A DNA stretch of 64,000 bases from Pegea sp. RAD2-039 (taxonomy: Eukaryota; Chordata; Thaliacea; Salpida; Salpidae): NCBI GenBank assembly GCA_034620365.1, contig JAQGEQ010000084.1:1488001-1552000 (forward strand). The letters are read 5' to 3'. This document shows, piece after piece, positions 10,001 through 58,446 of the stretch. The stretch's first letter is position 1. Every line of letters starts with the position of its first letter. The position numbers were made by a program, and so were the translations under genes. The notes under the pieces were generated by a model. The model had not been told where the DNA came from, searched no databases, and saw only the letters and a list, made by a program, of their open reading frames with translations.

Positions 10001-10500
10001 ACTTGCAAAACAATACAACTTTTAGATAGATATTACGAAAGTAAAAGCAAAAGTTATGAAATTATTAAACAAAATAGATTTATAGTAAAAACCTATAAAT
10101 TAGTTACATCGATCTACAAAATATGACTACTACAAAATTTTTCAAAATATTTTGATAAGCGTCTAGCTTAAAATGCCTTTCAAATTTATTTACATATTAT
10201 GATGAAAATGTTTAATATAATATAAACATTTACCGCAATTAAATATTTTATCAATTTTCAAAAGCTAAATTAAAAGCCTAAACAGAATTCTTACTTTATT
10301 TGATAAAAGAACTTCTTAATCACTATGATCTGAAAAAACTGAAATTAAGGGAAAAAATTATATGTAGGAATTGCAGTAACTCCTATTACTATGTATGCTA
10401 CTTTAAGAATATTTTATTGTTCTATACATTTTGTTCATGAATAAAAAAAGCTATATAAAGTATTTAAAAATTGATATATTTAAATTATTTATTTATATAT

Positions 10501-10556
10501 ATAAATGCGAAGGAGGGTGCCTAAAGAGAGCACTTCTCACTAACACATATTCTCAA
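10501..10556 (-). repeat. Shared retroposon tail inside the SINE (copy B)
   Basis: Plus-strand reading ATAAATGCGAAGGAGGGTGC then CTAAAGAGAGCACTTCTCAC. Nearly identical to the terminal segment of the LINE copy at 58361-58446 (in reverse orientation) and to the solo copies at 8951 and 55488. Confidence 0.85.
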
Positions 10557-10601
10557 GAGTTTTTTATGGTTTTTCTCAGGAGTTTTTATATGTCTCCACC
10601 T

Positions 10602-10612
10602 GGGGTCGAACC
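10602..10612 (-). promoter_or_regulatory. RNA polymerase III B box of the SINE
   Basis: The minus strand reads GGTTCGACCCC, matching the internal promoter B-box consensus GGTTCGANNCC exactly. The A-box-like element lies about 27 bp upstream at 10652-10639. Confidence 0.8.
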
Positions 10613-10660
10613 CGGTACTTCCTAGCTAGGTGTAGTAACCGCTTCGCCACCAAGCAGGAC

Positions 10661-11489
10661 ATCTCAGCCTTGGTAATTTACGGTCGTCAAACCAAGACTA
10701 TTAAAGCAAAATATTATTTTAATGTACTTTTTAAGACTTTCTTCAATGAAACAATTTATATATAAAGTTAATTGGTGTATTACATTTTTTGTTATAACAA
10801 AAGATCATCGTATCTCACACATAAATGTTGTTTCTATGAGAGTTAGACCGGCACGTTTTGTATAGAATCTGTTTTCCTATATAAAACAATGATGTTTCGT
10901 GTTAGTAATCGTTTGTGTTATGCGTATTTTTTAATGAAGAAAAGTTCTCTTAAGAAATTATTATCATTTAGATAGATATTAATAAAACATTAGTAAATGT
11001 GTAATGAGATACTACAAACTTTTATCGGAAGCTTATAAGCGTACTTATCACATTTTTAGTTTTATAAAAATCTTATTGCTGATGATTTTTACTGAGTTTT
11101 CAATACTGAATGACTTTTTACTAATTTTTTTACTTTATACTTTTTTCTAACTATCAAACTAATATGCTGTAAATTGCAAAGTAGATATAGTACAAAATGT
11201 TTAATTAAATAAATCTTGTATTTTCTTATAATATATTCTTAAGGTTTTCTGCTTGTGTTAGATATATGTCCAGTTTTATGTGTTTCAAATTATTAAAAGT
11301 TTATTATATTTAAACTTTTGACTGTTGCTAATGGATATCTTTATTTTAATATTTTTTATCATGGTGGCTATAATTTTGTTATTATTTTGTAACGAGTTTT
11401 ATATCTTTAAACCATGAAGCACTGCCAATATTTTATAAGTACCAGCTAATAGACACTACAATGTTTTTTATAGTTAAAAATATCATACA
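10661..11489. other. Intergenic, promoter side of the PLD6-like gene
   Basis: About 830 bp of AT-rich sequence between the SINE and the ATG at 11490. No exon, RNA gene or clear core-promoter motif was identified. It should contain the 5' UTR and promoter of the downstream phospholipase-D gene. Confidence 0.4.
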
Positions 11490-13697
11490 ATGGATCTTTT
11501 GAAATTAAGTTTTAAGTTACCACTATTTTTTTCTAAAAAAATCCTTGTTGGTACATTATGTATAACAACTAGTGGATTCATCTATCTAATATGGAAACGC
11601 TCTTGGACAGTAGAGCAAAAAAAGAAAGAACATTTCTCTAAAGTCTTGTTTTTTCCAGATGTTCACCCTTGCTCTGATTTCATCTTCAAACCGCAGGTTG
11701 GAAAAGTCGCTAATTAAAAAAAACTTCTTTTTATTTTTCTTTAATGTTGTTCTTCAAATCATATTTTTTCTGCTTATTTTTTTAATACTTGGCTTTATTA
11801 TACTTTGCATGAATTTATATTGTTCCTATTTTTTTCTACTTTTGTTAAAATCTATAGTTACATTATTCTATGTCTTTTATAAGAGCTGTATAATTTATCA
11901 TTTATAGCCAAGTGTTAAATAGGTAAACAAAATTTCTAGAAATTGTTGCTAAATGAAAATATATTTATTTCTAAAATTTGTAAAAAATTGTTATAAGTTG
12001 TAAATTGCTAGAGTTTTTAATTACATAAGTTTTGGTTAAGATTTTTTGTAAAACCACTAGTTTCTTCTGCTAAACTCTTTGTGTTTTTAAGGGTTGTATG
12101 AGAAGAAATTGTGTTGGAAGCCACAATAAGCAGTCTCCATTTAACCAAATGATAAGTCATATTTTAAATGTGACAAAGACTATTGATTTGTGCATGTATA
12201 GCATTACTTGTAAGGTAAGTGATTATCTAATATTTATGTCTAACATCTAAATTTTTAAGACTGAAACTTAAGATTAAAGTCTTTAAGATCTTGTAAGTTA
12301 GCTTCTGGAGCATATGGAGACTTAATTAATTTATTTCTGTAATTATTGACATCCTAGTGTTCTTGAACCAGCTTTGTAACACCAGATAAAGTTTTTTTTG
12401 AAGCTTGTGTTCTAAGACAAAGTTCAACTGTTCAGTACTAATCCTTTGCTTCTTGTTTCAAATGAATATAGTATGAAAGATATGTCTATAAAGTTTCAGA
12501 ATAAGTACCAACAATTCAACATCTTAGACTTTTATGCATAAAAAGACAGCTACTTTTAGTGACACTCTTTTTGTTCAAAATCTTTAAATTTTTGTACTAA
12601 GGCATGTTTCTTACCATCAGATAAGTTCTTTATTATCTAAACTACTCATAAAAATAATAAATAATTTTTCCCAAGATTTGTCTTATGGTTTGTAAAACAA
12701 CTGTATAAACTTAATAATTAGCTGGTGCATACAGCTGTGGTTTCAGCTTTGTGATGATATTCTTATCGTTTTATTTTAAACTACTTATTCAACATCATGT
12801 TGACTATAATATTATAAAAAATTGTGGCGGTTTGGTTAACACGACATATCTTAGATAAAAATGAGGTCTGAAAAGCTTATTTTTTATGAAACCTATTTAA
12901 TAATGACATAGATATTTTAATCCGTTTTAATTGATTCTTATTAAACTTATAAGATTTTACTTAAATTAAAATTTGGGAAATATTTTTTATACAATTGATG
13001 GAAAACTTGGAAAATGTAATTTAACTCTTGTAAAAAGCTTTTTATATTTTTCTTTACCACGTATTGCTGTTATTATTATTGTTTTTACCCATGTAATTTT
13101 TATTTTTTTATCTGTTTTAATTACAATTATATGATTTATCTCAGGAGCTTGCTCAGGCAGTCGTAAAGAAGCACAAGCAAGGGGTTGCAGTCAGAATTAT
13201 TTTTGATGCCACATTCATATCTTTAAAGGGGTCTAGACTAGAAGATTTTGCTAAAGCTGGTAGAAATTATTCGTAATACTAACTATGAATTAGTTAACAC
13301 AACTTGTAGCTTTATATTGAAACTACTAATTTCCTTATCTTCCTAAAGGGATTCCATTTCGTCACAATTCCAATCGGCAAACATTTATGCACAATAAATT
13401 CTTAGTGTTGGACAGTGAAGTGGTAATTACCGGATCAGCAAATTGGACAAAATCAGCAGTGGCTGGTTAGTAAAAAGATCTCTAATTTATTATTTTATTC
13501 AATTTCATTTATTAATTTTGGATTAAACAAATTTGAGTGCAAAAATTACTAGCAGCAAATTTGTGATAACATTTTGAGCTTTTTTAGGAAATGATGAAAA
13601 TGTTATCATTACTGATATTCCTAAAGTGGTTGAACCTTACATTGAACGTTTTAATTATCTGTGGAACCTTTACAATTTTGAAGCTAAGAGTTATTAA
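11490..13697 (+). CDS. PLD6: Mitochondrial phospholipase D-like endonuclease (Zucchini/mitoPLD)
   Basis: Five exons, 11490-11696, 12092-12214, 13145-13259, 13349-13465 and 13588-13697 (TAA), give 223 aa, close to the usual size of PLD6. Residues about 19-36 (ILVGTLCITTSGFIYLIW) form an N-terminal membrane anchor, as in mitoPLD on the outer mitochondrial membrane. Next come KVLFFPD...C, a short Cys/His segment (CMRRNC...H), IDLCMYSITCK, a VRIIFD strand, and a single catalytic HKD motif: MHNKFLVLDSEVVITGSANWT with H-x-K, D and G-S-x-N all present. The end, ENVIITDI...ERFNYLW, matches the family's last helix. Family members have one HKD motif, act as homodimers and cleave piRNA precursors to make phased piRNAs (a phospholipase role has also been reported). 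Active-site residues look intact. Start: first ATG directly before the anchor. A poly(A) signal follows the stop by about 40 bp. Confidence 0.93.
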
Positions 13698-13739
13698 GAA
13701 TGGGTTATCTATCAACGTTTTGATAACATTCGTTAGACA

Positions 13740-13745
13740 AATAAA
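13740..13745 (+). terminator. Likely poly(A) signal of the PLD6-like gene
   Basis: AATAAA lies about 43 bases after the TAA stop of the PLD6-like gene, followed by T-rich sequence. In DNA this AT-rich such hexamers are common, so position is the main support. Confidence 0.45.
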
Positions 13746-16700
13746 TAATTCTTAACTACATCAGTGGTTTTTGGTGCTTTTTCAAACAAACTATCAAACT
13801 TTTTTATTTCATACTGTTGAAGTTAGTTAGTTCCTAGCAGATGTCACTAATTTAATTTTTTAGTCACGTGAAGGATTTAGAGATCAAAGAAGCAATTCTA
13901 TTTTTTTCTACTCTGCAAGTTTTTAAGAAGCTCACTAAAAGTATAGAGTGGTATTTTAAGCAAAGTAGATAAGTTGAAATAAGGAGATAGTGTTTGTAAA
14001 TCAATACCTTATTTTAGTTGTAGTATAAGCTCCTGAAATTCAATGTTATACTTGTAGAATGATTAAGATTTTTACTGTAACTATCAAATTTTTGTAGCCA
14101 TTACTCTCTGTTAGCTGATTTTTCAGTTAAATTCACCTTTAAACTCAACTTTACTTTTATAGTTTTCAATCATCTATTACTCTAAAACACTAAGCTATCT
14201 TAAGAGACTGATTCAAATTTTTTTTTTGCAATTTTACTTTTATCACAACCATTACTTAGAACTATTACATCAAATACTCAGAAGTACTGCCAACTTAGCA
14301 TAATTTTAAAGGGTTTTTAATAAATTAATGAATGGTATCCATTACTAAGTCAATTGGTTATTCTATTGCTCCTGTAATCATTGATGTTAGTTTTATCTAA
14401 GATAGTTTTGCTTCTAGTAAATGTAAGGTATTTGCAAGTAATCAATTAGAGACTTGTAAAATTTACAACTGTTATAAACCTCACCACAAAATTGCTATTA
14501 TCAAGCTAATGGAAATTTAAAATAGCTGAAAATTGATAGATGAGAAAATTTAAGTGTTATAATTAAGAGGTCTCATCCATGAAAGATCAAATACAATTTT
14601 TTACAAATTTATCCCATATACTTACACTTAGGTAATTCATTTTTAGCTGAAAAATAGAATCATTCTAATTCTTTTTAATTGATCTGAAAAATTTCTACTA
14701 GTAGTAAATGAAGTTACCTAAAAGTTGTATAATCTCTATTTCAGCTAATTTGACGAAATGATTTACGTAATACTTTAAGAAGATTTAGTGCTTGAAAAAT
14801 CATCTACTTTTTAAGTATCCAAGATAAATAGAGGTAGTATTTAATGTTTTTCTTTTGTTTTAGATATTATCTTTTTGGACGAAAGCCACTAATAAAGAAA
14901 AAATTTTCTCTGAACTTGTTCAACATAATAATCTTTTTTGCTTCTAATTGTTTAGTTTTTAACTTTTATCTTGTTTTTACTTACAACTTTAATTTTTCTA
15001 TATAAACTGATTATTTAGTGATTACCTTTAAACTCTATTTTATTTAGAAACTATCTTTATTTTCTGTGACAGCTATATTAGATTTTAAAGTTAGAATAAG
15101 CCATAAGCTGATTACTTTAAGCAATAAACAAAGCTCTATATTGAATAAATATTATAATAATTTGGTTTTATCTAGTACTTAAAACTTTACTCAAAGTTAA
15201 GGTAATAAGATAAAAGGTAACGTTATGTCTTCTTTCAACATTTCATTACGGTATTTATTACATTAAAGATAGAATGCACAATTCAACTTCATTTTTATAT
15301 TTATAATAGAGTTTTCAATACTAAGAATTGATTAGTCATGTAATAAAAAATATACCTAAATATTTTTGCCCTTTTTCAGATTTTAAATTATTCATTGAAA
15401 ATTATTATTTTGATTGAACATTTGTTTAAGATGCGAAAAGTTACAAAACTGCAAAAATGTGTTAACTTAAGGATGCATTTTTATTGAAATAACTTAAAAA
15501 ACATACAAGTAAAAACAATTTAAAAAATTTGTTATATTCGCCAATAATTAACGCTACTTTTGCTTATCAATTAAAAGTACAATAATTAATTAACATTCTA
15601 CAATTATGGTTAAAATCTATAATTTAACAACGTTTTGCCAAAACTTTAAAACATATATCCTAAATTAACTTAATGACCTTAAAAACAATAATAAAGCTGA
15701 ATATAAGACTGAAACAATAGAACAACTTCTGAAAAAGTAAAGTTTGAGTATTTTTTTTCTGATTGTCAAATTATTTATACAATGAAATTACATCAGCATA
15801 ACAAACATGTTTGTATTTCAATTTGGTATCATTATTACACTTTGATTCTTCTAAAATATCTTAACATTCATTGGTTAACTTTTTTGCTAATATTTAGCGT
15901 TAATAGTGAAGTAAGAATAATCAAGAAAACTGATTTAGTTAAACTTGGTAAAGTACCAATGACCGCTAAACCTACTTTGTGTTAACTACATAATTAAAAT
16001 TATTTTTCTTAATTTCAAGATATCTTTTTATTCTGTATAGCTTTCAGCAGTAGGAAATAGAATTTATCTCCACAATTCTTCTTTCTTTATACAAAATTAT
16101 TCGTTTACAGACTCTAAACTAGTTGTTTGTCATTATTTGAGATAAACATAATGATAGTACACTATGAAACATTTGATTTTACAATCTCCGCAGAACATTT
16201 TCATTAAAAAATTACTAAATACTATTAACTTGAATAAAACTCCATAAGTCTTATAAATGCTACTTAAAAGTAAAATTGTTATAATTCAAGTTACTTGTAT
16301 ACCATTTAATGTTGTAACATAAAACCATTAAGATATTTTGTTTGCTTGGTTGGCTTACCTTTTATTATTCAAGATCTATTTCTGAATAAATTTATTTTCG
16401 CTTTATTCTCTTTTAACCACTGTTTCACCTTATTTCTATTTTTAAATTTCTTTCTTCACAAATTCATTCACACCATTCTTAAAGCAATATTATGACTTGA
16501 ATATTATGATAAAACTTGACAAATTAGACTCAAATTATGAAAATGTTTTCAAGTTAAAGGTCATTACATATTTAAGAGTATTCTTATAACCCTTTTAAAT
16601 TATAAACAACCAAATAGTAGTAATTTGAGGTTTGTTAGAAATTTAATTCTTTATTTTTAATTTTACTTAGAAAAACTTTTGAAAAAGACTTGTAATTATA

Positions 16701-19700
16701 CAGTAGGCAAATTAATAATACAACTTTCAATTTTAACTATCTAAACTATGATATACAATGATGATAATGATTGATCTTATCAAGTTCAAATAACAAATAA
16801 CTAGATTTGATGATTAAAATTGAGGTAAAAAATATCATATTTTATTTCCTTGTTTTCAATAAATTCAGTGAGAAAAATTTATGATTGTAAGCTTGCTTTT
16901 TACTATTTATAATTTAACTTTATTATGTATGAAGTGATGTCAGGTGCGACTATTGAACTGAAAAGATAATTGAATAAAGGTTAAAAAACATTTTAGATAA
17001 AAAATTTGCGTATATGTATCACGCTATCAACTTTAAAGATAAAAGTAGATAACAAAGAAAAAACAGAAATAACAACTACTAAAAGATTTTAACAACATTT
17101 TTATTATATCCTAAATTTGAAAGATATATTTAATAATCTAAATAAAAAGGTCAGAAAATTTTGAAAATAGTAAAATTGAAAAAGAGCAAAAAACAAAATA
17201 CTTTTCATATCTTGAAGGTTATGTAATAAACTTTGTTATAAAGAATATCAAAGTATAAATCTATGGTAATATACTTCAAGCTACACTAATTTAGTAAATT
17301 GCATATACTAACTAAAGAAATAGAAATGGGGTAATCATATTTAGCATAGTGAATTGTACTTTTTGTAAATCTACTTGGTCGAATGATTACCGAACCAAAA
17401 GTTCAAGTTTCATTAAAGATGTCACATTCTAAAAAGGATGTTTATATTGTTGGTCTAAGATTGAAAATATGTAGGATAGCAAGATTGATTTAAAGTTGGA
17501 TTAAAAAAGTTAAAAGAAACTAAGTTTTGTGTGTCTAAATTAAATGAAATAATAAAATATTAGTGATTTACAACAAAATAATTTATATGTAAAATAAACT
17601 TGAAAGTTTGTTCCAATTTTACTTCTTCGCTTGAAAAATATGAGAATTATAATAACTTAGAATTGTAGAATTATAATAGCATCAAAAAATAAGCTGATAT
17701 CCAATAAACTTGATGACCCTTGGAATTAGTTCAAAGTAAATTATTAAAAGTTATAAAAACATTTTTGACCTACTGTTCATCTACATCCGAAAAGATAATC
17801 TATTCATCAATACAAATAAAAGTTTTATCAATTAGAACAAGATTAAATAAATTTCTCTTCATGTACGAGACTTCTGCAAATGCAAAGAACTTCTTATCTC
17901 TATTCATAACTTTGTCATACACTTTATTGTATACTTAAACATTGCTAGTGAGAGTTTATTAACATCAAAGTTTTTGACAGCATAACAAAGTAATAAAGAC
18001 GTCAAAAGTTGTTTGAACGAAGTTTACGTCAATTTCTAAATGCTCAATCCACAGAACGATGATACAACTTTACAATTAACTGAAGGTAAAACACAAGAGC
18101 AAAATATGAGGAGAAGTAAAAAGTATAAAGTCACGTATAATACTCTGTGTATATTCTAGGACTTTGAATTGAAGGAAACGAGGCGGAAGTACAGACTTTT
18201 ACTCAAGTTGTAAATCAATTAAGTAAATTGTTGAATGATCAGTAAACCTTACACTCCTCTACATTACTTCTGACCAGACTTTGTGTCGCCTCTTGTCACA
18301 AAGGATTAGCTGCTGTAAATTAAAGTCAGCCATCAGCATATTAGATTTGTAAGTTTCTCAGGAAGTCACAAATTGAAATTTATCAATTTTAACTCCCTAT
18401 CCAGAAGCATAGCATTGAAAGGAAGGCTTAGTAAACTTCAAACTTTTTTTAAATAAAATTTACACAATTTGTTTATTTTTACCCAAAGAAGAAAAACTCT
18501 TAAAGCTAGAAATTTTTCTATAACCTTAATCATCTCTAAGAACAAATACACTTAATTAAGCTAGCGGTATTTAACATGATCAAATTTATTTTAAAAGTAT
18601 CAAATTGTATCATATTTTGTATTAAAAGTATCTCAATATTAGTGTTTGCTAAACAAGTATACAACATACAAACAACATTTGATAATCCTTTTGGTGGAAT
18701 GGTTATTTTAAAGATATATCCTTCAGAAGTAAATTAAAAAATGCATTTTCAGATTCAACTAAACTTTTTTTGATCACGTTAAAGATTCCTACGTTTTAAA
18801 TGTACTGCTCTAATTTTACAAGAGAATTTCAATAACTTATAATTCACTTTATTAATATGTCAAAAGCAAAGGAACCTTTTATTTAATTCAATTCTAACTT
18901 GAAAATCAGCCATTTTGGTATCTTAATGACAATTTAATGACTCGCAAAGTCAAGGGTATCACGTCTACCAGCTTATAAACATTTTCAGTTAGTAAATACG
19001 CCGACCAAGCAACTTGTAAATTGATAGTTAAAAATTCATCGGCAGAAAACCAAATAGTAAGAGTTTTAAGTAAAAAATGCAAACAAAAAAAACATGTTAC
19101 AAAATATATATGCTAAATGGGAATACTGAAAACTTTTTTAAAAATTAACTTTACCGCCTTATGTGATCTGCTTATACTATTGTTTAAAACGCTTTAACAT
19201 ACAACCTAAGTAATAAATTTTCTAGAAAATTAGAAATAATCTTAGTTTTAATGAAGAGATAACTTTATTAAAAGTTTTTAATATTTAGAAAAAAAATTAC
19301 TGTAGTTACCGTAATCGAGACATCTTTAATTAAAAACTGCTCAAATTTGTAGAGCAGAATATTGTTTTCTATAAATCATGTTAAACAAGTGAGTTAGTTT
19401 TCTTAATTTCATTCATAATTATTCATTGATTAATATTCACGAATAAACCATAAATTATCGTAAAAGTGTTTTATAAATCAATACCCAAATGCGGTTAAAG
19501 TTAACTTGATCATATATACATCAAGCAATTTGATTAACTTTGAGACGTTCAATAATTTCTTTTTACTTTTCCAGGCCACTTACATTAATATTCCCACTGA
19601 TAAGAAGTTTGCTACAGCTTGATTTTGTAGCACAAGCAAGTTCTAAGCACCGTTATCACCAAGTACAATTATTAGCTAAAAATTTCTTAAAAGTTAAGAT

Positions 19701-22700: not shown

Positions 22701-23249
22701 CATGTTAAATTTTATTATTTAAGTTTTGTATTAAATATATTTAATTACTGATTTGGCTTATAAAAGCAAAACTGTATTAACAATATAATTAAACATTTAC
22801 AAGTTTTTGTAAAGCATTGATTTTTTAAGCTGATAAAGATAACCGTCATTGTTCTAAAAAATCCATTGAACAAACGGATTTAGCTTTAAGCAAACTAATG
22901 TAATTGCTAAAAGATTTTCAACTATCAAGCTCAGTTAAAAAATTAGAAAATACAATTAGATAAATTTCAAAGTTTGCATAAATTGTTTTGATGTTAAAAT
23001 AAGTTTTGTTTCAAAGATTATTATCAACCATTGTTATAAAGATAAACATCTACAAACTTGTAGCAACAAATTAAACTATTTGAAATACTTTTGTTGCTTT
23101 GTGACAGTTTTTTTATTAATGACAATTTATTCAGCTTACAAAAACAAGGCAACTAGATTGCAAAATTTGTTACAAAGGAATTTAAGAAGAATTTATTGAT
23201 TAAAAATTGATTGAAACCACAAAGCGTTGATATAGTATGGTGATAAGTT

Positions 23250-38976: not shown

Positions 38977-41900
38977 ATGGTCTCTAGAATGTGGAATGGC
39001 TCAAAGCTACTGGTATCGGCAATCTTATTTTGCCAGGCGTACGCTTTCTGTATAGCAGCTATAACTGAGCTGAATCAAAGAAAAGGTTCAAAATATGGGG
39101 AAGAAGATAGAGCAACTGTTGATCAAAACGAGGCTAGCCTATTGAAAATGTTTGGTTTGCAACGCCGGCCGACTCCAAAGAAAAATCAAACTGCTCCAGC
39201 AATCATGCAGCATTTATACAAAGCTCATTTGGGTGATGAGTTTAAAGATCAAGAAAACCTTTTAAAAACTTGGGAAATTGGATTTGATCTTCCCCCTGGA
39301 AAGATCAGAAAAATTTCTAATACAATTCGTAGCCTTCATCACTCAGGTAAACAATTATTTGCTTCATAATTTTAAGTTATGTTTTTTTTGTAAATTGCTA
39401 CGAGGTAATAAATCTATTTTTTATGGAAGTTTAAATTTTGACAAAGATTTTGTCGATTATTTCACCATAAAAACAGCTTCGAAGACATTTTCTCGATATT
39501 ATCATTTATAAACAATGTATCTGAGTCAATTTTAAACAAAAAATATTAAACAAATTTCTTATTTTTTGAAAGCAATCACCGTCATAATTTAGTTGTCTTT
39601 AATCAGTCGTTGTTACTAAATATATCATCAGTTGGCTAGATAGCAGTGAATTAATTATAAGTTGAGTATCGAATATTATACTGCACTTTTCAATCTCCAT
39701 GAATTTTTGTGTAAGTATCAAGTTTCCAGTTATTGAGAAAAGCTTAGTACAATCAAGTAAAACACTTTCTTCTTCAACCAAACAGCTTCTGTAAGTCAAC
39801 TTACCGTGACTAGCCTTACAAGTAAGACAAAATATTCAATTCCGTCTTTTAGTTGATTTATAATCTAGTTGCGAAGATGTTTAGATTAAAATTCGATCGA
39901 TATGAAACAGTTTTTTAATTGTTCTTTCTTGATTTAAGTCCTAATCTTCGTGTCAAACGTTATCACTCAAATAAAGCAAAAGATTTGGTTTAGCTTCCTG
40001 GTTACAAACTTAAAGCAACATATAAACATCCAACTGTTTTTTACAGCTAAAAATAAAATATTGTTGTAAGAAAGAAAGTTAATAAAACATTTTAAAAAGT
40101 CTGAATGAAATAAATACAAACTGCGCTCATAAATAGTTAAGATAAAAAATTGTTTTATCAAGTTTTATTTCTTCATTTGAAAATAGGTTGATTGAAACGA
40201 AATTGTATTAATCTTTTATGAGAACTATTTAAAAGTAGAAGCAAAAAATACTAAAAATTGTTGTAATGTGAAATACTCTAAACAAACTTCTTTTTTCATC
40301 ACTGAATTGTGAGCCATTTGCCTGTTTGATAAGCCAACAATGTAAAATTTGATTTTTAAACAATTTTCAATCGTGGAATGCGTTTGCCTATACAAATAGG
40401 AAATGAAATCAAAGTTTCAGATACCACTGGATGAAAGGTTTTTTTAGATGAAAGATTCCTTTGAAAAGATCTTTAAGATAAACGACCCTTTTCAGAGTTT
40501 CATGCTCCCATATTTCAAAATTCCAAATTGACCACATATGATGACCACAAATAAGATGAAAGATAATCTTCTGATGATTCAGAAGATTTGAGAGATCCAT
40601 TCGGCTTGGATTGGTTTTTTAAATACTTGATTCAAAAATTCTTTAGAAGTATTTTTCCTGATAAGATTGAAACAAGGAGAGTTAAAATCGGTGAGCAAGT
40701 AATCAAGGAAAGTTGTCACCTATCAGTGACCACAGATCAATTGTGTCATAAGAGTTCAATTACTCATTTCATTTGAACTTTTGGTAATCACTAACGATTA
40801 TATCTGTCAACACTTTCTGTATGGAAATATTTCTGTTCTCACTTTTTGTATCTTAAGCGAGTCATTTGTAAAAATCTACAACCATTATCACTAAAACGAT
40901 CACGCAATCTTTACGTCTACCTCTTCGTAGTGACGACATGGCATGACCAAGAAGACTTCTCGGCAAATAACCAACCATCACCTCAAGTTGTAATAACAAC
41001 AAACCAAAAAAACATCTCTCGATGACTGACAGGTGCAGATTGCCACCATTGAGCATCAATTTCTCTTTTCTCTCTTCTTCTAACTTACTTCTATCGAACA
41101 AACGAGCTCGACAGGGGTCTCATACTCACCAACCACCATTGTGAGAGTTCGTTATCTAAACGTAAATGCTCTTCGGCCTATGTGCGTTTACTAGTTAGGC
41201 TTTGTATAACCTGATACGCGGCATCTCGAAGGATTTGTTGTTTTCTTTCCAACAATCTTGCCGTGAGTTATTGTTGCGTTGCAGATAGCTTTCATCCAAC
41301 CGCAGGCAGAGAAAAGGGGTCCTTTAGATGGAGCTAGAAAAAGAGAAAAGAAAAAAACCAACATTAAAATGTTGAAACAAGTTATTCATTGCTTGTTACA
41401 TCATGTTAACGACAAAATACTGAAATCTGATTTCTTCTGGCAACATGTATGATCTTACAGAGGGTCTCTAAACCTTTCCACACTGCAAATCGTCAGACTT
41501 ATGATTTGTTGTTACAACAGACTCGTTGATAAACATGACTCTCACTTGCCACGTCACAACTTTTTCACTTCCAAGTATCTTTGTTTTACGAGAACCCACT
41601 CATTTAGCGAATCCTCAAGCAAATGTTTTTATGTCAACATCTTTTCACTCAAGTCATTTCAGGAATGAATAATTTCTGACTTTTTTAAAGTGCCGAAAAC
41701 TATAAATGGCCGACAACGTTGTGAATAGAAATAGGAAAATTCTGAACTTTCCAATCACATCGTTTGTTCAAGAGAGTTATTTGCTGACAACTTTTGATTA
41801 TTTATCTAAATTGATTTAAAATATTTACTCAAATTTTTGTAATTAGACTTCTACGATTTGCAGATCGAATACTTGCTTAAATAGTTTTGTCAAAAACACC

Positions 41901-42937
41901 AATTACTAAATAAGAAATCTTTACGACAAATTGGTTAGACTTAATTTACTACTAATTTGATCTTTTATTTATATTTTTTTTAATCAGAAACTGAAGAAAT
42001 TTTTCCTGGGAGTAAACACGGTCACTTTGTACGTTTGAAATTTAATGTGAGCCAATTACCTGATCATGAGATTCTACAAGCTTCTGAGCTATTGCTGCAC
42101 AGACGAGGGCTTGAATCGAGTGCCTTGAATCTTCAAAAGATGAACGTGTATGAGATTACAAAAAGTTTAAGCAAGAGATCTATGATTGATGAGAAGAGGA
42201 AGACCTTTTTGAGGCTGATAAGTAGCAGAACAATGAATGCAACTAATACCACATGGGAAAGATTTGATATCAGTTCGTTAGTTAAACGTTGGCGGTTGAA
42301 TAAAGCAAAAAACGACGGATTACTGATTGAAGTTACTCAAAATGGCAATGAAGGAGCTCCACCTAATGACGAGATCAAAACACATGTAAGATTGCGCCGT
42401 GATATTTCTGATGATGAGCTTGATGATCAAGAATGGCAACATCAACGCCCAATCCTTCTCACCTATCTTCATGATGGCAAAAACACATCGCTCGAAGCAC
42501 ATGGACGTTCACGACGTAGCAACATTCCAAAGACTAACGGATCTTCTACAAATGTATCCCGAAGAAAGAAGAAGCGAGACGCTAACTCTCGAAAGAAAAA
42601 TCGAAAGCGGAAGAAACGCGATAAAATTTGTCATCGGAGTGATCTTTACGTCGACTTCAAGAGTGTTGGATGGAGCGATTGGATTGTTGCGCCTCATGGT
42701 TACTACGCCTATTACTGTCAGGGTGTATGTAGCTTCCCTTTGTCCAGATACATGAACGCGACCAACCACGCAGTGGTCCAAACACTTGTCAACGATGTTG
42801 ATAAAACGGCTGCACCTAGAACCTGTTGTGTCCCAACCAAACTGGGTGAAATATCGATGTTGTATTTGGACGATAGTGACCAAGTGGTGCTAAAAACTTA
42901 CCCGGAAATGGTCGCTGATGAGTGCGGGTGTCGGTGA
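38977..42937 (+). CDS. BMP2/4 (dpp): BMP2/4/Dpp-type TGF-beta ligand precursor
   Basis: Two coding exons, 38977-39346 and 41988-42937 (TGA), with G|AA restored at the junction, give 439 aa. Residues about 9-24 ([16 protein letters not shown]) form a signal peptide. The prodomain has [20 protein letters not shown] and NTIRSLHH, both BMP2/4 hallmarks; as I recall, the intron after this HH block is also where vertebrate BMP2/4 genes have one. The mature domain (Cys338 to Arg439) has all seven knot cysteines, [33 protein letters not shown] (with the conserved N-glycosylation site) and a CGCR end. Basic processing sites are clustered: RSRR about 297-300, RRKKKR 315-320 and [10 protein letters not shown] 325-334. 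The ligand is secreted as a dimer and signals through BMP receptors and Smad1/5/8, usually in dorsoventral patterning. An in-frame TAG upstream near 38900 and no ATG between support the start; ATG 38989 is an alternative. Separate 5' UTR exons are likely. Confidence 0.96.
39347..41987 (+). other. Intron of the BMP2/4-type gene
   Basis: 2641 bp with GTAAAC donor and a pyrimidine-rich TTTTTTTTAATCAG acceptor. The 40850-41660 part is clearly less AT-rich than the rest and carries several CG dinucleotides, which could mark an intronic enhancer or a UTR exon. Short open frames inside are not protein-like. Confidence 0.6.
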
Positions 42938-48900: not shown

Positions 48901-51900
48901 TATTTTCCCAAGCTAGCTATATGACGTCATCGAAAAAGATCGCCATAAAGTGTTTTTTCTTTCTCTATCTGCTGCGCGTTCCTAAGGATCAGTGATAAGG
49001 CGGGTGCTCATAATGAATTCGGTGAAGCGGCGGTGGTAAGACCGCGGATTACATCCACCCTTCCTTCACACGATGCTTCTTATTTTCTTTGACAATCGTT
49101 CTCATATAAGCAAACAACAAGATGAAAGCGATCTCCTCGAACCATCAGGAGATTATTTATTAAATGTTCTTCTGTTTTGCACACTGTCTTCTGTATACTT
49201 TCCAACATCTTCACTTCCGATAGTTGAATCTTGTCAATTAGTTGTGGGGCTGGGACCTGAAAAAAATTTGAAGCTTCTGGCATTTTGTTCTTTTAATAAA
49301 CGTTTTAAAAGATAACATTTTAACCTTCATATTATAAAAAATCTCAAATTTTAATTGATTGAAAACTATTTTTAGGAACTTTATATAAAAGGTTTTTTAC
49401 AAATCTTATTAGATTGTTTGTTACACAATCTCTTTTAAGAATCTTTATTAAAAAGTATTTAACTTTTAAAATAAAACTTTCCAAAAATAAAATCTTTGTT
49501 TTCTTAGTGACGTAGCATTAACGATATCTCTTAAATCAAAACCTTATTTGTAGATAAATCAATAAAACGAATTGAAGTAGGCAACTGAGGCTTTTAATTG
49601 AGTCATCGTTTCTTTCGTTTTGACATAAATCTTTATGTGAGCAATTGAAATCGTCAGACTGCTTTTACTTTGTTTTACACAAGTCACAAAGAAGCAAGCA
49701 TAAACAAATTCAAACAATTTCTCTTTCTGACAAAATAGTTTTTGTTTACAATGGATTATCTTTACATTTGTTTATTGAATCAACTACTTCAGATATTGCA
49801 AATAGAATAAACAAACTATTAGAAGGAATAGCTTATTGCGAGCATGTAAATGAGGTCTTTGAAAGCAGTACAGAGTCTGTGTATCTGGAAGGGGCTTGTA
49901 AAATATTTGCAATAAAATCTATTTATTGTTTAAATGTATTTCTGTTTGCACAATTATTAGAATCAATTTTAAAATAATCATTTGCTACATGAAGTTTGTT
50001 TTTGTTGTAACAAACTAATGTTTAAAGATATAAAATACTTGACTATTTCATTAGACAAATTTTGTTTGTTATAATCACATTGGCACAACTTTCAGCAAAA
50101 TAAGCCATCATATTAGCTTATAAGAATATTTTGATTTTTGGCTCTTAACTAATTCAAATTTTTTGCAGAGGCTGACGTAGTCGCCTAAAAATATACAGTG
50201 GGAAATGAGTAAAGTTTTTAGTATTGTAAACGTTTTAGTAGGAGTAAGCAATAATAAGGCTGTCTTTCTAGAGTGATGTAAAACACTTATCCAATAGGGA
50301 CAAAGTCTTTTTTAAAACACTCTCAGATTTACGCAGAAGCTAACAGATTATAAATATTCTTAAAAACTTTTAAATTACCACCCACTCAGCCTACAACAAA
50401 AGTTTCCCATAAAACTGAAGAAATTCAGATGCTTGCAAAGTTGGTCATGTTTAAACTTCAGGATTTTACACAATTTTTGGAATTCTTATGATAATTATTC
50501 ATTTACCCATCATTCATTTAAAAGTACTTTATTTTTTATTACAACAACAAACTTTTAAGTTATTATATTTCATAATAGAAATTAAATATTACTTATTCAT
50601 TTACAGTTTATTTTCAATCTCTTTTGGTAGCATTAATCATTGGTTTAGTTTTTTTTTCTCTCTTAAAAACGTTTAAAAGATTTTTTGAACTTGATGAAGC
50701 TTGTAGTGTAAAAGTTTTATTGCTGAATATAAAGCTTACAGAAAAATAGTTATTAGAGTTTTTTGTAAGTTTACAAGACTCACAAACCTTTATTGTAGGC
50801 TATAATTTAGGGCCACCTCAGAAATAAAACATAATTTCTTTTAAAAAACGAGATTTTGTAGTTTTAAATTTCATAATCAATCATCACAGAAGTTTCTGCA
50901 ACCATTCTGTACGCTGTGTTGTTAAAACTTACATCAAGCTGATCAAGTAACTTATACAATGTAAAGAGCTTGATGAGCACCACTGAAAGTTTCTCCTTAA
51001 TTTCAAAGCAACTGATGACGAGAATTCGTGAGTCACAAAGCAGTACAACATCTTAAACTATTATCCAGAAAACATTATTATCGTTTCAAAAACGATTTTT
51101 ATGCAAAAGAATGTATCTTGTACAATCCAGACAACAGGAAAAGAGGAGATTGTTTTTTTTCACTGAATGAGCATCTCTAAGCATCAGTAAGACGCAAAAT
51201 ACAATTTTCCACGCGTCCCCATTGCAACCTGTCACTCATATGTCACAATTGACCTCAAGGCAGTGATCGACTAACATAACACTGGCAATTACTAAAGCAC
51301 GGAATAAAATGATTTCTTTTTTCAGATAAACATTGGTCGAACTTTGCCAAGTGGATTTTAGCTAACCTTAATATCGTTCATATCAAGCAATTGTCTTTAA
51401 ATCTGTAATTAGCTGGATCGGAATCAGTTCAAGTATCTGCGAGTTTCTCAACTTCCTGGATCTTCAAGCTGTGGTAAACAGAGACTTCAGCTTCTTCTTT
51501 TTCAGATTATTTGTAACTTTCTTTGCTACTACTCCAACTAACTGCTTCTAGGAAATTTGGAAATGGAATTTTTTAATAATATAAATCATAAGCTCATGTG
51601 AATTTTAAAAAATTCTAAAAGTTTCCGCTTTCAAACTGACTTTATTTATGGAATAAATTGTATTATATAATTTTTAATTTGTAAAATTTATAGGTATTTC
51701 CAACCCTCCTGTTACACTAAACAAAGTGGCTTTCTATTTGTTTTAATTTTTGTTATTTAATTTCACGGTAACTATTTTTTATCTGCAAGATATCATAAAA
51801 TGTAGTTCAATAGGATTGACTAAAACCTAAACTTTTTTTTTAAGTTTTGAATAAGAATAAAAAAAGATTATTTTAATTTAGGTTCAGTTATTTCCACTAA

Positions 51901-54900
51901 GTATGTATATTTTTCATAAAAGAGTAGATAAGACTCACAAAGAGTGAAAATCTTTTAAAGAATTTTTATAGCTAAAAAATCAAAATTAAAGCTGTTTAGT
52001 TTGCGATGATTGATAAAGAAAGCTGAAATCGTTGAATACTATAGAAGAAATCCACTTCAGTTGTTGATAAATATTTCGACTATTCACTTCCAAATGAGAT
52101 CTTGCTTAGAACAAGCAACTTAATCACGTGAATTCTTAATTCATTCAAGTATTTCTGAATGATCAAGACTAGTAAAAACTGACAAAGAAGCAAAAGAATT
52201 CAAAGAGCAAAATAGCGACTTTGGTGTCTCGCTTTATTATTGCTGTGTTTAGTGGAATAACGTTTACTTTCTGCTTTTTGTGTAAATTTACAAAGTTTTG
52301 AGTTCAAGATGAAAACATCTTCCAGTCTTAACCTCAGTTATGTGATCAGTATTATCAGCAAATCGAGCTATTTATGCCGCCTTAAAGATTTTCTTCGCTT
52401 ATGGTGGTTACCTCATTATACAAGCTTCCCTTGTCAGTGTGCTTTCCTCTTCTTCACATGAGGCATCTTGAAGAATTTACGGTAAAATGGTTCAACATGC
52501 AAAGATCAAAGCATGTGATTGAGCAATTTAATAGCCTGTTACTAGACATCAATCTGAATCTATCCAATTTGAGAATAAAATGATTGCATTACGAATATCT
52601 CGATCTGAAGACACTTTTAAAGTGGCTGCATTTTTCCCAGACTCTTGAAAGCAGCACCTGATCATCATTTGTTTAAACTACTTTCAAACTTTTCGTAAGT
52701 TAAATTTAGTATTAAAAATATTAAAGCTGTTTTTGATTGAAGTGAATAAGCACTTTAAACTATTATCAACTAAAAGAAAAATATTTCTTATTTGGGACTT
52801 AAGAAGGCTTTAAAAGTTGTTTTTAGGAATTCTTTTTAATCTAACACTTAAGTCAACTTAAGTAGAACATATAGAAAGAACTTACCTAAAGTCATAATCT
52901 CAACAAGATAAAAGTTAGGCGTATGGAATTACAGTCTTTTGATTGTAACAGTCTTATACTACTTTTCCCCTTAAGTTATTGTTTAATGTGAAAGAATGGA
53001 ATGGAAAGCCACAAAATAAGGTTTTTTTAACCATCTATTTTGAATAACAATTAAAAAATTAACTGTCTAATTTCCGTGCGAACATTAAAAGTTTATTCAG
53101 TACTTTTTTATTTGCTTGCTTTTATGCTTCAATGAACTTCTCAGCTTGCATATTTAGTGTCATCAATTTAATTGCTCTTGAACAATCAATAAAGTCACCC
53201 GTTCATACGAAAATGAACATGTTCATTGTTTACAAAAAGATGTGTTCTAAAAATAAATGATTCTTATCCGAACCGAAAATTGCCTTTTATCTGATAGAAT
53301 TAAATTATAATGACAATTCTCAGGCATTGATGATGTACTGATGCCATGAGCTATCGGTTGTTAAGTTTTAAAATGAAGCTATTACTTGTACAATCTCATC
53401 AATTGCTTCATTCTACTTCTTCAGCAACTGAATACTTTTTTTTTATTAACTTTAAATTAATCATTAAAAAATATATATCATTATAAGGATTGCAGGTAAA
53501 ACAAAATAATAAACTTCTTTGTTTTGTCTTACTTAAATAGTAAATCTGTTTTTTATATAACAACTTAAGAAAATACAGAAAATCTAAAATTTGAAAGTTC
53601 ATGAAATAAACTGACTTCTAAATTTAGGAATAAAAACGAATAAAAATTGAATTATAATTCCTTGCTTTAAATCTATATATATATATATAATAATAGTATA
53701 TTCAAAGATATAAATTAAATAATAAGTTAGTTTTTTAACACTTTTTTAAAACTATATTTTCTCTAACTTTGTCAAATAAGACAGATGTTTTAGAAGTAAA
53801 TTTTGTAATCAATCTAAACCTAGAAACTACTTCAATTGATTCTATTGGTACTTATTAAGAATTTGTAAGGAAAGATGTAATTAGTATTGAAGACTTTAGA
53901 AAATGTAAGATCATCGTTTTCAAAGTATTTATTTTTTAAGCTACAAATACAGTCAATATTAATTATCTCAATTGATTTACTAATTAGCCTTAGATAATTT
54001 TAAACCATTGTCATCAAACAGAATAGATAAAGTAAAAACATTTTATTTCAAGTTTATTTTTCATTTCATGTAACATTTAAAGATTATTATAATTACTTAA
54101 ATATTATTGCTTCAAGATTTTTATTTAAATCTATGACTTATAAGCGATACAAACCCGAATGTCATTTTACGATACAAACCGTGAAGATATGCCTCATATG
54201 GTTCGGCCCTTTGATGGGTATCACATGACCTTTTGAACATTTAAGTTTGTCAATGAAATAAACAGATATTCAAGAGGTACTAGTAGTCATAGCAACATCC
54301 ACAATTTGTAATTAATACCCTGAGTTGGCAAAACGTACTTTGCCCTTTTCGAATCACTACGAGTGCTTGCTTTCTAAGTTTGTTGTTTTAGCCTGTCAGC
54401 ATGTGAATGAATAAATTGAGTTCGGTACTAATTAACCGTATAGTTAAAATTGGAGAAATACTTAAAGAAGAAGAAGACTTATTCCATCTTTTCAAAGTAT
54501 GCGTCTGGCTGAATTAATATAAAGGCAAATTGACAGAGTCGGAAGAATTGCTTATTTGCAAGATTCAATTGTTACTGTGGGAAGCTGTGTTTTTTAAGAT
54601 GATTTTTGTATAATCACCATAAATGTGACATATGTAATAAAGTACTTCCTTACTTATCAACGTAATAAGTAGCAAGCAGAAGGATTCTTTTTATAAATTT
54701 TCACTTAAACCCAAATGATTTATTGACAACTAATAAATATAAATACTCAAAAGTTGTATATCGTTCTTTGCCAGGATTTTATCTACTACTTCGATCATAA
54801 TAAAAATCAGGCAAAATTTTCGTTTTTTAGAAGTTGAACAAGCGAACATGTAGGTAGACAAAATGTCATGGGTGATTGATCAGTTGCGAGATCCTGCTAG

Positions 54901-55487
54901 GGACTATATGTAAAGTGTTTTCGATTCTGTCGTAGGAAAGGTTTGGAAATGAAGATTAAGTACTTTTTCGTGCAAGCAAAAAAGATGGTATTAAAATATC
55001 GAGAGAAATATGATTGATGTCTTGCTTTTATTCATATCTAGCTGTGTGAATCAGATAAGAAACAAATAAATTCAATGAGAAACTAGCAGCTAATATTTCT
55101 ATACACTTCTACCAACCACCTCATTATGATTACAAATGTTTATTTTGGTTTGAAAATGCGCCGGAGCCTAGAAGACACATTTTACTACTTCTTTTAACCA
55201 CTCTGAGTGAATTTACTAATAGTGCAAAAAAATTCCTAAGAAGGTTTGTCGATCTTTATAAAAAAATAGTCTAAAGTCTAAAGATTAAAAAAAAATTGTT
55301 TCAATTTTTGGTATCAAAAGTATCTTATAAGTTTTATTGCGCAGTAAGTTCTCATTTAGAAGAAGTCAGTGATGCTGGTAATCCTGAACTAATTCATTTA
55401 GTTTTATGATATACAATTTGCAAATAGATTTCAACAGATCAATAAACAGAAAAAGGTTTTTTGATTTATCTGCATGTATTTATTACA
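42938..55487. other. About 12.5 kb mostly non-coding region downstream of BMP
   Basis: Contains the BMP 3' UTR, then AT-rich DNA without a supported gene. Less AT-rich islands lie around 45750-46340, 48690-49070 and 50900-51500, and each has CG dinucleotides and mixed sequence. At 49010-49040 an ATG followed by six codons runs into a GTAAGA donor-like site (end of the second island), which could be a first coding or 5' exon, but no partner exon is identified. A dinucleotide (AT)n run lies near 53674-53690. An open frame at 49624-49977 is listed separately. Confidence 0.4.
49624..49977 (+). CDS. Unassigned open frame, possible terminal exon
   Basis: An open stretch from an in-frame TGA (just before 49626) to TAA at 49977, about 116 codons, long for DNA this AT-rich. 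It has no in-frame ATG, so if real it must be entered by splicing, for example after a CAG at about 49658 or an AAG at about 49684. The residues are varied and protein-like (SDKIVFVYNGLSLHLFIEST, then Glu-rich CEHVNEVFESSTESVYLEGA), with a hydrophobic end. I recognise no family and see no linked exon. Chance remains a strong alternative. Confidence 0.2.
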   Translation, partial: HKSLCEQLKSSDCFYFVLHKSQRSKHKQIQTISLSDKIVFVYNGLSLHLFIESTTSDIANRINKLLEGIAYCEHVNEVFESSTESVYLEGACKIFAIKSIYCLNVFLFAQLLESILK

Positions 55488-55542
55488 ATAAACGCCAAGG
55501 AGGGTGCTTGAAGAGAGCACCTCTCGCTAACACACATTTTCA
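55488..55542 (-). repeat. Solo copy of the SINE/LINE 3' tail (copy C)
   Basis: Plus-strand reading ATAAACGCCAAGGAGGGTGC then TTGAAGAGAGCACCTCTCGC. Closely matches copies B and D. On the minus strand it is followed by TTTATTGTAATAAATA, as at the LINE end. No tRNA-like head or LINE coding sequence is seen upstream in its sense direction (55543-55800). Confidence 0.75.
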
Positions 55543-56847
55543 CAAATAATATTATATATAATAATACCTATTTTATATAATTAAGTTTGAAATATAGAAA
55601 TAGGTGCAACACATGACATTTAAGTAGTTTCCAAAATATATAACAGTGAACTATTACATAGAATGTTAATAGTATCAAAAAGAGAAAAAGAAGAAATGGC
55701 AATGTTGACAATATCAAAACGGTTCAACTTCTGCTTGAACAGCACGAGTGAAAGTTCAAGTTAAGCTTAAAAAACAAACCTTAATCTTTAAAGTTTCTTC
55801 AAACTGCTTAACTGAAGACTAATAAAGTTATCTATGTTCATAAAAATGGTCAATAGTATTTGTATGTAGTTGTTCTATCTAGTTTAAAGTATTTTAAACT
55901 TGAGCTATGTCTGTTAGCATATTAATTACAACTCAAGGTACTAAAATATATTGCCTGCTAGCGGAAACTTAACCTTTCAACCATTATAGAGATGATGTTA
56001 AAAGCAAAGCTGCGACCATTATGGCCATAAATGTAAACGGGAATACATGATGTTTGGAGCTAAAAGTCAGAAAATTGAAATTGATTAGCTCGTAAACAAA
56101 AAAATGAATAACAAATTTAATATAAATAAATGATTTTAAGATGCCTGAAACGCTAAAAACTGATTTATTCTCCTGAAGCTAAGGAAGGAAGAAAATAGAA
56201 GTTTGAAGATTAACTGAAGGAAGAGACATACCATAAACGTAGCTACTTTTACTGGAATGAGGTGAGGTAAACACTTTCAACCACTAAGAAATAAACTCGT
56301 TTTTGTACAAGTTTTTTATTGGCCAAAGCTTGGTTTTATAGGCTAAACAATATCTAAATAATGAATATTATTTGATGTATGTAAAACTAGGAAAAGTTTA
56401 AATTAGAGCGCCTGATCCTGTAAGCTCAGAGTTATCAGGAATGAAACTTTATTGAGGTCACACAAAATGATTCAATAGAAATTGCTTTTTAATAAATTTT
56501 CCAAAATAAATCATTTTTCAGCAGAGATTTTTGAAATATTTAATTTTATAAATTGAACAAAAAAGTTAAATATATATAATTTTTAATAAATTAAAAAAAT
56601 TAAATGTTATTTTGTACAATCAATATATGGATGAAAGGTATGAATTTTTGTTTATGTTGAATTTTCAAAACTCTTTCGCTCTCTTAATTACTATCATTGA
56701 TAACACCATATTGTTTTTTGCTTACTATTGTATTGTTTATGTTTTTATTTAATAAACTAGATTCTTAATTAAAATTAAATACGATAATTATAAACATTGT
56801 CTCAGTTTCTTAAATTTAGATACTTTGGAAATTTGATAGATTAAATG
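55543..56847. other. Non-coding spacer
   Basis: About 1.3 kb between the solo tail and the first LINE fragment. No coding exon or repeat was recognised. Composition is AT-rich with mixed patches. Confidence 0.35.
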
Positions 56848-57134
56848 CGACTTAATTCTTAATTCTAAAATTATCCCCAATTTAGTTGACCTTCAATTCG
56901 ATAGTTTCTTTTCTATTAGTCCTTCCTTCAAGTTATATCAACTCAGAGGACACGCATTACATCTTGATAAGCCCATATCACCTGGTACGTTAATCAGAGC
57001 AAATTCTTTCTCATACCACACAATTAGTAATTGGAATCAGCTGCCATCAGACATTGTCATGTCAGAATCACTCGCGTTGTTCAAGCAGAAGTTGAACCGT
57101 TTTTTAATATTTTTAATTTTTAATATATTAAAGT
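56848..57134 (+). pseudogene. Non-LTR retrotransposon fragment, C-terminus of reverse-transcriptase ORF (copy 1)
   Basis: An open frame encodes the C-terminal tail typical of CR1/L2/jockey-like LINE proteins: FKLYQLRGHALHLDKP, a basic and Ser-rich linker, SYHTISNWNQLPSDIV, then SLALFKQKLNRFL and a stop at about 57134. The motif W-N-x-L-P followed by S-L-x-x-F-K-x-x-L is what identifies it. The copy is 5'-truncated at about 56848, where similarity to copy 2 also begins, and lacks the polymerase domain, so it is dead. Its 3' sequence diverges from copy 2 after the stop, and no shared tail is visible. Confidence 0.78.
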
Positions 57135-57950
57135 AATTGTATATTGTGCTGGTTCTACAGGTGTTTTAGATTGTATTTGAGTTCTAAAAAATATTTACTG
57201 ACAAATAATTTTATCAATAATATATTTTATTGTATGGAAAATTTAGTTGATGTAAAATAAAGCTAATAATTTAAGTTCTTTATTGCTGAGGATGTATAAA
57301 GATGTATAAAACTAAACAGAATCATTAAAATTAAAAAATAAAGTATTTCAGACGAATCAACTTTTTTGTAATTACTTCAAATAGTAATATTTATTAAAAT
57401 TAGAAATACCATGTTTACGACTAATGAAATAAAAGTATCATTAAAAAAATTAAAAAGAGCTGAAACTACAATTTGTAAAGTTTCGTTTAATTTATTTAGT
57501 TTTCTTTGACCCTGACCTTATTTCAAAACTTGCATCTATGAAATAATTTCTAGTTTTTAAAATGTAAAATTTTAAGTTCTGTTTTAATAATTTCTTATGC
57601 AGCGCGAATTTTTAACACCTAATGACAATAAAAGTCCTCATGAAAAGAAACATTTGAATTTTTAGGAATAGCAAAAATGTATACATTAATTTGGTACTAA
57701 CAAATTTGACTTGCATCTTTTAGCTTTATTTGAAAATTTGCGAACCTAGTTAATTCATAATATATTTTTAAGATTTTCTAAGAATTTGTTTTGAAATCAT
57801 TATAACAAAGTTACTAAGTCATCATATTTAGTCAAAAATGAATTATTTGAAGTTTAAATTCCTTAAAAATCAGCATAAATAAAATTAAAAGAGAAAATTG
57901 GTCAATAATTTTGAAAATAAACAGATTTCACTTATAAGTGTAATATAACG
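57135..57950. other. Spacer between the two LINE fragments
   Basis: About 800 bp of AT-rich DNA. It may include diverged 3' UTR of copy 1, but I cannot trace a tail. No gene seen. Confidence 0.35.
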
Positions 57951-58446
57951 ACTTAATTCTTATTTTTAAAATTATCCACAATTTAATTGATCTTCAGTTT
58001 GAGGATTTCTTTTCCATTAGTCCTTCCTTCAAGTTATATCAGCTCAGGCGACACACATTACATCTTAATAAGCCTATTTCACCTAGTACATTGGTCAGAG
58101 CGAATTTTTTCTCATACCGCACAATTAGTACATGGAACCAGCTGCCATCAGACATTATCATGTCGGAGTCGCTCGCGTTGTTCTAAAAGAAGTTGAACCG
58201 TTATATTGCCAACATTGTCATTTCTAAACTGTGATTTTTTCTCTTTTTTATATTATTAACATTCCATGTAATTGTTCGCTGTTATATGCTTTGAGGGCTA
58301 TCGAAATACTATTTGTTACATCTTTTGCTTTCTATATTTTTGACTAAATAGATGTTATTTGTGAGAATATTTGTTAGCGAGAGGTGCTCTCTTCAGGTAC
58401 CCTCCTTCGCATTTATTGTGATAAATAAATGAATAAATAAATAAAT
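57951..58446 (+). mobile_element. 5'-truncated non-LTR retrotransposon (LINE) with 3' tail (copy 2)
   Basis: 57951-58200 encodes the same C-terminal segment as copy 1 (FKLYQLRRHTLHLNKP, then SYRTISTWNQLPSDII), but a TAA replaces the CAG codon in SLALF-x-KKLN at about 58183, so it is defective. After about 160 bp of 3' UTR it ends in the shared tail (58361-58425: GTGAGAATATTTGTTAGCGA, then GAGGTGCTCTCTTCAGGTAC) and a run of TAAATAAATGAATAAATAAA. Both fragments start at nearly the same point in the ORF and lie about 1.1 kb apart in the same orientation. They could come from two insertions or one local duplication. Confidence 0.82.
58361..58446 (+). repeat. LINE 3' terminal tail shared with the SINE (copy D)
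   Basis: The reverse complement contains ATAAATGCGAAGGAGGGTAC then CTGAAGAGAGCACCTCTCGC, matching copies A, B and C. It is followed by an imperfect (ATAA)n-type microsatellite end, expected at the priming end of a LINE. Confidence 0.85.

Follow-up and report, generated by a model that had tools for sequence, protein, structure and literature searches.

A SINE with a tRNA-Val-like head and a CR1/L2-type LINE with a common 3' tail: a probable mobilisation pair in the salp Pegea sp. RAD2-039

The genome of the salp Pegea sp. RAD2-039 carries a family of short interspersed elements (SINEs) whose head resembles a valine transfer RNA (tRNA) and a family of long interspersed elements (LINEs) of CR1/L2 type, and both families end in the same tail followed by the same AAAT repeat. 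Judging from these sequence features, we consider it highly probable (about 0.94) that the resident LINE mobilises the SINE through this common tail. Both elements are present in a stretch of 64,000 nucleotides, referred to below as the window (GenBank assembly GCA_034620365.1, contig JAQGEQ010000084.1, positions 1,488,001 to 1,552,000 of the forward strand), which has a GC content of 27.1%. Sharing the end of a longer element is the usual way in which short tRNA-like elements borrow its copying enzyme. The original prediction, made from the window, had proposed such a pair, and a sample of the whole assembly (105,744,746 bases in 387 contigs) supports it, yielding two families, one junction and the same AAAT terminus.

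The tail 20-mer GCGAAGGAGGGTRCCTGAAG is found in the window four times with no more than 3 mismatches (at 8957, 10507 and 55494 on the plus strand and at 58391 on the minus strand) and in 0 of 100 dinucleotide shuffles. BLAST with the whole elements extends the tail at four places, given below in the orientation of the elements. The four sites originally proposed (8951, 10501, 55488 and, inverted, 58361) were recovered by both approaches; the proposed length of about 55 bp was too short, the common part measuring about 70 bp if the run into the repeat is counted. The SINE copy occupies 10485–10660 on the minus strand, with boundaries taken from a 30-locus alignment: its 5' end is at 10660 and its 3' end in an AAAT run near 10485. 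As had been claimed for the element that this tail ends, it possesses motifs resembling the A and B boxes of RNA polymerase III (pol III) promoters, read from the sequence as TGGCGAAGCGG at 10639–10649 and GGTTCGACCCC at 10602–10612, both on the minus strand. Its common tail (10487–10555, minus strand; BLAST start 10470 or 10487) and that of the LINE at 58362–58436 share 85% identity.

The 3' end of the LINE copy, 57941–58446 on the plus strand, comprises the C-terminus of open reading frame (ORF) 2, the 3' untranslated region (UTR), the tail and an AAAT-type repeat. The end of this ORF2, of the type without long terminal repeats (about 57941–58200), precedes the tail at 58361–58446 in agreement with the original prediction, and the element terminates in AAATAAATGAATAAATAAATAAAT. 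The common tail proper (GTGAGAAT...CATTTAT) covers 58361–58416 on the plus strand, from where the AAAT-type repeat runs to 58446. A more diverged LINE 3' end with the tail, which was aligned to the LINE consensus and shares 71% identity with the copy at 58 kb, lies at 55457–55751 on the minus strand; its tail part corresponds to 55457–55543 (minus strand, BLAST). The fourth tail (8937–9006, minus strand; BLAST end 8982 or 9006) stands alone, neither a SINE head nor a LINE 3' UTR being recognised upstream, and is probably a 5'-truncated copy.

Across the assembly, with 3 mismatches or fewer allowed, the tail core pattern matched 2440 times, the LINE-side junction pattern 2117 times, the SINE-side junction pattern 343 times and a 30-base stretch of the SINE head, from the B box on, 228 times; each of the four patterns gave 0 matches when reversed. 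These counts are not additive because the stringency of the patterns differs against each family. A 32-base pattern from the tail, degenerate at two positions, had 129 exact matches, the first 30 of which make up loci L061–L090. The window's SINE copy had 41 genome matches including itself (the best 40 scored of 1894 candidates). The LINE loci, chosen for their likeness to the LINE 3' end in the window, tail included, were likewise the best-scoring 40, of 3275 candidates, and 30 loci were cut for each family. Since these loci were chosen by score, their ages and identities are biased towards copies resembling those of the window.

Thirty SINE loci, the window's included, can be aligned between GTCCTGCTTAG and the AAAT repeat, and their flanks are unrelated except in L036–L040, which have one flank. 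The element is about 180 bp long, and the consensus, which leaves out L037–L040 with their flank common to L036, measures about 184 bp if part of the repeat is included. The five loci with the common flank (on contigs C346, C341, C331, C330 and C163) represent one SINE insertion found five times with near-identical flanks, a segmental or assembly duplication. The 3' ends of thirty LINE loci, including the window's, were aligned; in this alignment 29 of them end in the tail, and the thirtieth (L010) has its tail at 1660–1729.

Between the SINE and LINE consensus sequences, similarity sets in at a single position and continues into an AAAT repeat common to both, which is the boundary that a true pair had been predicted to have. 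The tails are identical at 62 of 70 bases, or at 52 of 56 if the repeat is left out, compared with 14 of 60 in the ungapped 60 bp upstream of the junction. The tails reach a local alignment score of 92 against a shuffle maximum of 19; the upstream parts score 15 against a shuffle mean of 14.1, and 103 of 300 shuffles score as high. Among 98 distinct tails, 55 follow the LINE 3' UTR and 30 follow the SINE head, while the other 13 have neither of them upstream. An AAAT repeat lies no more than 36 nt from the end of the tail in 27 of the 30 SINE tails (duplicates removed), in 46 of the 50 LINE tails that were located (5 of the 55 were not) and in 8 of the 11 located among the 13 others, and in 54 of 1840 control windows. 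Before the removal of duplicates the census held 107 tails (59 LINE, 34 SINE and 14 other), with repeats in 49 of 54, 31 of 34 and 9 of 12, respectively; after it, L039 is still counted separately from L036–L038 and L040, which have the same flank. All 34 matches to the SINE head (30 distinct) run on into the tail. Such proportions of tails and heads describe the retrieved sequence and are not genome-wide, because it was chosen for its resemblance to the SINE, to the end of the LINE and to the tail.

That the SINE is a short and interspersed element is seen in its 343 junction matches and in 28 copies whose flanks are distinct. Of these 28, 26 have an exact A box and 27 an exact B box, and we take the motifs to agree with the pol III consensus for the two boxes. 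The internal pol III terminator TTTT is absent from 26 copies and occurs once in the other two. When the head was aligned with seven native tRNAs, the best was tRNA-Val(TAC) of the same genome, with a z-score of 6.6, the other six reaching at most 2.4; the tRNA-Val query gene was the one adjoining SINE copy L045. The SINE reads as a composite: its tRNA-Val-like head, with a predicted internal pol III promoter, is joined by a short AT-rich linker to a LINE-matching tail of about 60–70 bp. The tRNA-Val(TAC) gene at L045:1425–1497 ends 5 bases upstream of that copy, a neighbourhood seen in 1 of the 28 copies and possibly due to chance. The tRNA genes are clustered at a spacing of about 200 bp on contigs C19 and C77, and many of equal score are found on C50 and C208.

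The coding part of the LINE can be followed in a copy on contig C19, in which open coding pieces extend up to about 3.8 kb upstream of the 3' end. The endonuclease piece matches Exo_endo_phos_2 (PF14529, E 1.4e-9) and the reverse transcriptase piece RVT_1 (PF00078, E 6.1e-34), and R2 and L1 ORF2 proteins are the PDB sequences that the reverse transcriptase matches best. LINEs of the CR1/L2 lineage pair an APE-type endonuclease with a reverse transcriptase, and their ORF1 has a PHD finger in many subgroups. According to passages of PMC4120745, an ORF1 bearing a PHD finger is known in the CR1 and L2 lineages. We call the Pegea LINE 'CR1/L2-type' on this ground, as a label rather than a clade assignment; the likeness to these lineages consists in a possible PHD finger in ORF1 and in the endonuclease and reverse transcriptase of ORF2. 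The window holds one more fragment of this LINE, a piece of ORF2 at 56848–57101 on the plus strand, whose 254 bp share 86% identity with the copy at 58 kb. Its match stops before the 3' UTR and the tail, in contrast to the usual 5' truncation.

The reverse transcriptase of stringent LINEs recognises the sequence of the 3' end and copies SINEs that share the same end, as described in PMC3747384. If the Pegea pair works in this way, the SINE would be transcribed by pol III, its tail would be bound by the LINE endonuclease–reverse transcriptase like that of the LINE's own RNA, the enzyme would nick chromosomal DNA and the SINE RNA would be copied by target-primed reverse transcription with the AAAT repeat as the site of annealing. 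Two SINEs (L041 and L046) sit inside copies of the same LINE, so that other LINE copies reveal the empty site: four loci provide the empty counterpart for L041 and three for L046. At both sites the SINE was inserted as a discrete unit, and at L041 the insertion appears precise. The L041 target reads ...ACCGTTATGTCAAG..., and ATGTC flanks the insert on both sides; the duplication is given as 3–5 bp because ATGTC is partly confounded with the AAAT repeat. The insert of L046 starts with an extra CCTGCTTAGATT ahead of GTCCTGCTTAG. An extra CCTGCTT or longer sequence that repeats the start of the SINE just upstream of its 5' end was noted by eye in 3 of the 28 copies (L034, L046 and L054), which suggests template jumping between SINE RNAs. 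The junctions of L041 and L046 resemble those reported in passages of PMC4245944 for ZfL2-1, with its 5-bp target duplications, and for ZfL2-2, with its extra nucleotides at 5' junctions; the comparison from our side involves two resolved empty sites.

A number of results weigh against mobilisation of the SINE by this LINE and have to be set beside the evidence above. ARAGORN calls no tRNA in the SINE head, and the Rfam tRNA model finds no match there at E values up to 10; the head is therefore at best a decayed and rearranged relative of a tRNA. The match of the C19 ORF1 piece to PHD is weak (E 0.015, below the Pfam cut-off). At L046 the target (...GATTTAAATTTGG...) offers only an AAAT overlap with the repeat. 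The excess of end matches over the 28 SINE copies is small (permutation p of 0.007, 0.037 and 0.11 in the three windows tried), and exact end matches of at least 9 bp were found in 1 of 28 copies against 0.4 expected, an uninformative comparison. The predicted folding of single tails is modest when compared with shuffles (z −2.57 for the LINE, −1.49 for the SINE and −2.69 for a hybrid tail). In the RNAalifold structure of 27 tails, taken from 73 distinct near-full-length ones, none of the 16 pairs has a compensatory change, the only frequent alternation being G-C to G-U (16 and 11 sequences); a stem-loop in the tail is plausible on this modelling. Lastly, 13 of the 98 distinct tails fit neither family in the sequence upstream of them.

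These partnerless tails would be expected if the tail were a separate repeat, such as a satellite or a small element of its own, beside or into which both the SINE and the LINE had inserted. We regard this as barely credible. Several of the tails in question keep LINE-like sequence right up to the tail or begin at varied positions within the tail (1, 2, 4, 7, 10, 32 and 39), as 5'-truncated copies would, the regular succession of head and tail in the SINE has no exception in our sample, and the LINE 3' UTR always meets its 55 tails at the same junction and in the same orientation. Furthermore, the flanks differ between loci, save for the few duplicated ones, which means that the two families did not both insert into the tail as a separate third element. 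It is less far-fetched, and still distinctly unlikely, that the similarity has no function, the SINE being a chance chimera moved by a relaxed LINE by means of the A-rich terminus only: the AAAT repeat alone could serve for priming, and the stem-loop of the tail is a predicted one. The presence of the tail after every SINE head match speaks against such a chimera, as does the good conservation of the tail columns in both families (mean column identity 91% over the 27 aligned tails), part of which is explained by recent common ancestry.

Where the tail came from is a further point on which explanations diverge. LINE-type tails read either TTCAGGTACC, as in the consensus of the loci nearest to the window's copy, or TTCAGGCACC, the two being represented by 13 and 17 of the 30 exact-tail loci, whereas the core of the SINE tail reads TTTAGGCACC. 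Two LINE 3' ends, L097 and L098, picked by eye among the matches listed for the LINE junction and the tail core, carry this SINE-type core. Their tails match the SINE consensus at 66 of 72 (L097) and 69 of 74 positions (L098); the LINE consensus agrees with it at 65 of 73. There are 12 occurrences of the exact hybrid core, three of which were placed: L097 and L098 are LINEs, and C93:46453 lies in a SINE match. These comparisons, made without a tree, suggest that the SINE took its tail from a LINE subfamily with the TTTAGGCACC core, which may well have been the donor in place of the subfamily nearest to the window's copy. The opposite transfer, from SINE to LINE, or the derivation of both tails from a third LINE, in which case the present LINE would not be the donor, appears unlikely to us. 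The difference of 4 in 56 positions between the LINE consensus tail and that of the SINE would suit it, and so would the presence of the tail on LINE copies with different 3' UTRs; what counts against it is that the tail also ends the diverged LINE copy at 55457–55751, with its changed 3' UTR and its indels, and that the SINE-type core stands on two LINE copies. A fuller history under the borrowing of a LINE tail by the SINE, which we put forward tentatively as possible rather than probable, is that the tail can be traced stepwise to a minor LINE subfamily with the TTTAGGCACC core, the SINE then fixing changes of its own, in a group of animals for which hardly any such pairs, or none, have been described, and that some inserts start with an extra SINE 5' end as if the reverse transcriptase had jumped between SINE RNAs.

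Apart from these elements, the window contains at 38977–42937 a gene for a BMP2/4-like ligand of the TGF-beta type with at least two exons, whose nearest PDB sequence is BMP-2. Its exon 2 encodes a TGF_beta domain (E 6.7e-36) together with propeptide sequence, and exon 1 gives a propeptide match (E 1.1e-5) just under the cut-off. This gene marks the genome as that of an animal. No COX1 gene was found in the assembly, and two primers for Brachionus plicatilis taken from PMC11219915 gave no match with up to 2 mismatches, a negative that primers spanning introns would also give.

The architecture described here is a familiar one. In the passages of PMC3747384 that we draw on, 58 SINEs with a 3' end common to a LINE are counted and partners of the CR1 and RTE clades predominate; in the table passages Protostomes are represented by one pair, that of Gecko of Aedes and an I-type LINE. 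The pairs tabulated by Ohshima in the same source are like ours in their tRNA-related head, LINE-derived 3' end and common terminal simple repeat, and unlike it in sequence and host. UnaSINE/UnaL2 of the eel and HAmo SINE/HAmoL2 of the carp likewise join a tRNA-headed SINE to a partner LINE named after L2 (PMC3747384). Experiments on the eel pair are cited there in support of tail recognition; the present pair is known from its sequence. No title or opening of an abstract on this SINE/LINE pair was found in the open-licence literature searched, on rotifers and on tRNA-Val SINEs with CR1, which is weak evidence of absence, and passages of PMC6555955 and PMC7943196 name SINEs only as a class.

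We conclude that the SINE/LINE pair of Pegea is real, ordinary in kind and well resolved, and that it is new as far as our limited searches go. It leaves the general view of SINE movement unchanged. What it adds, from an animal genome that is small and AT-rich, is a pair described with its junction, the origin of its head, candidate donor copies of its tail and its empty sites, and it could become a compact test of stringent tail recognition.

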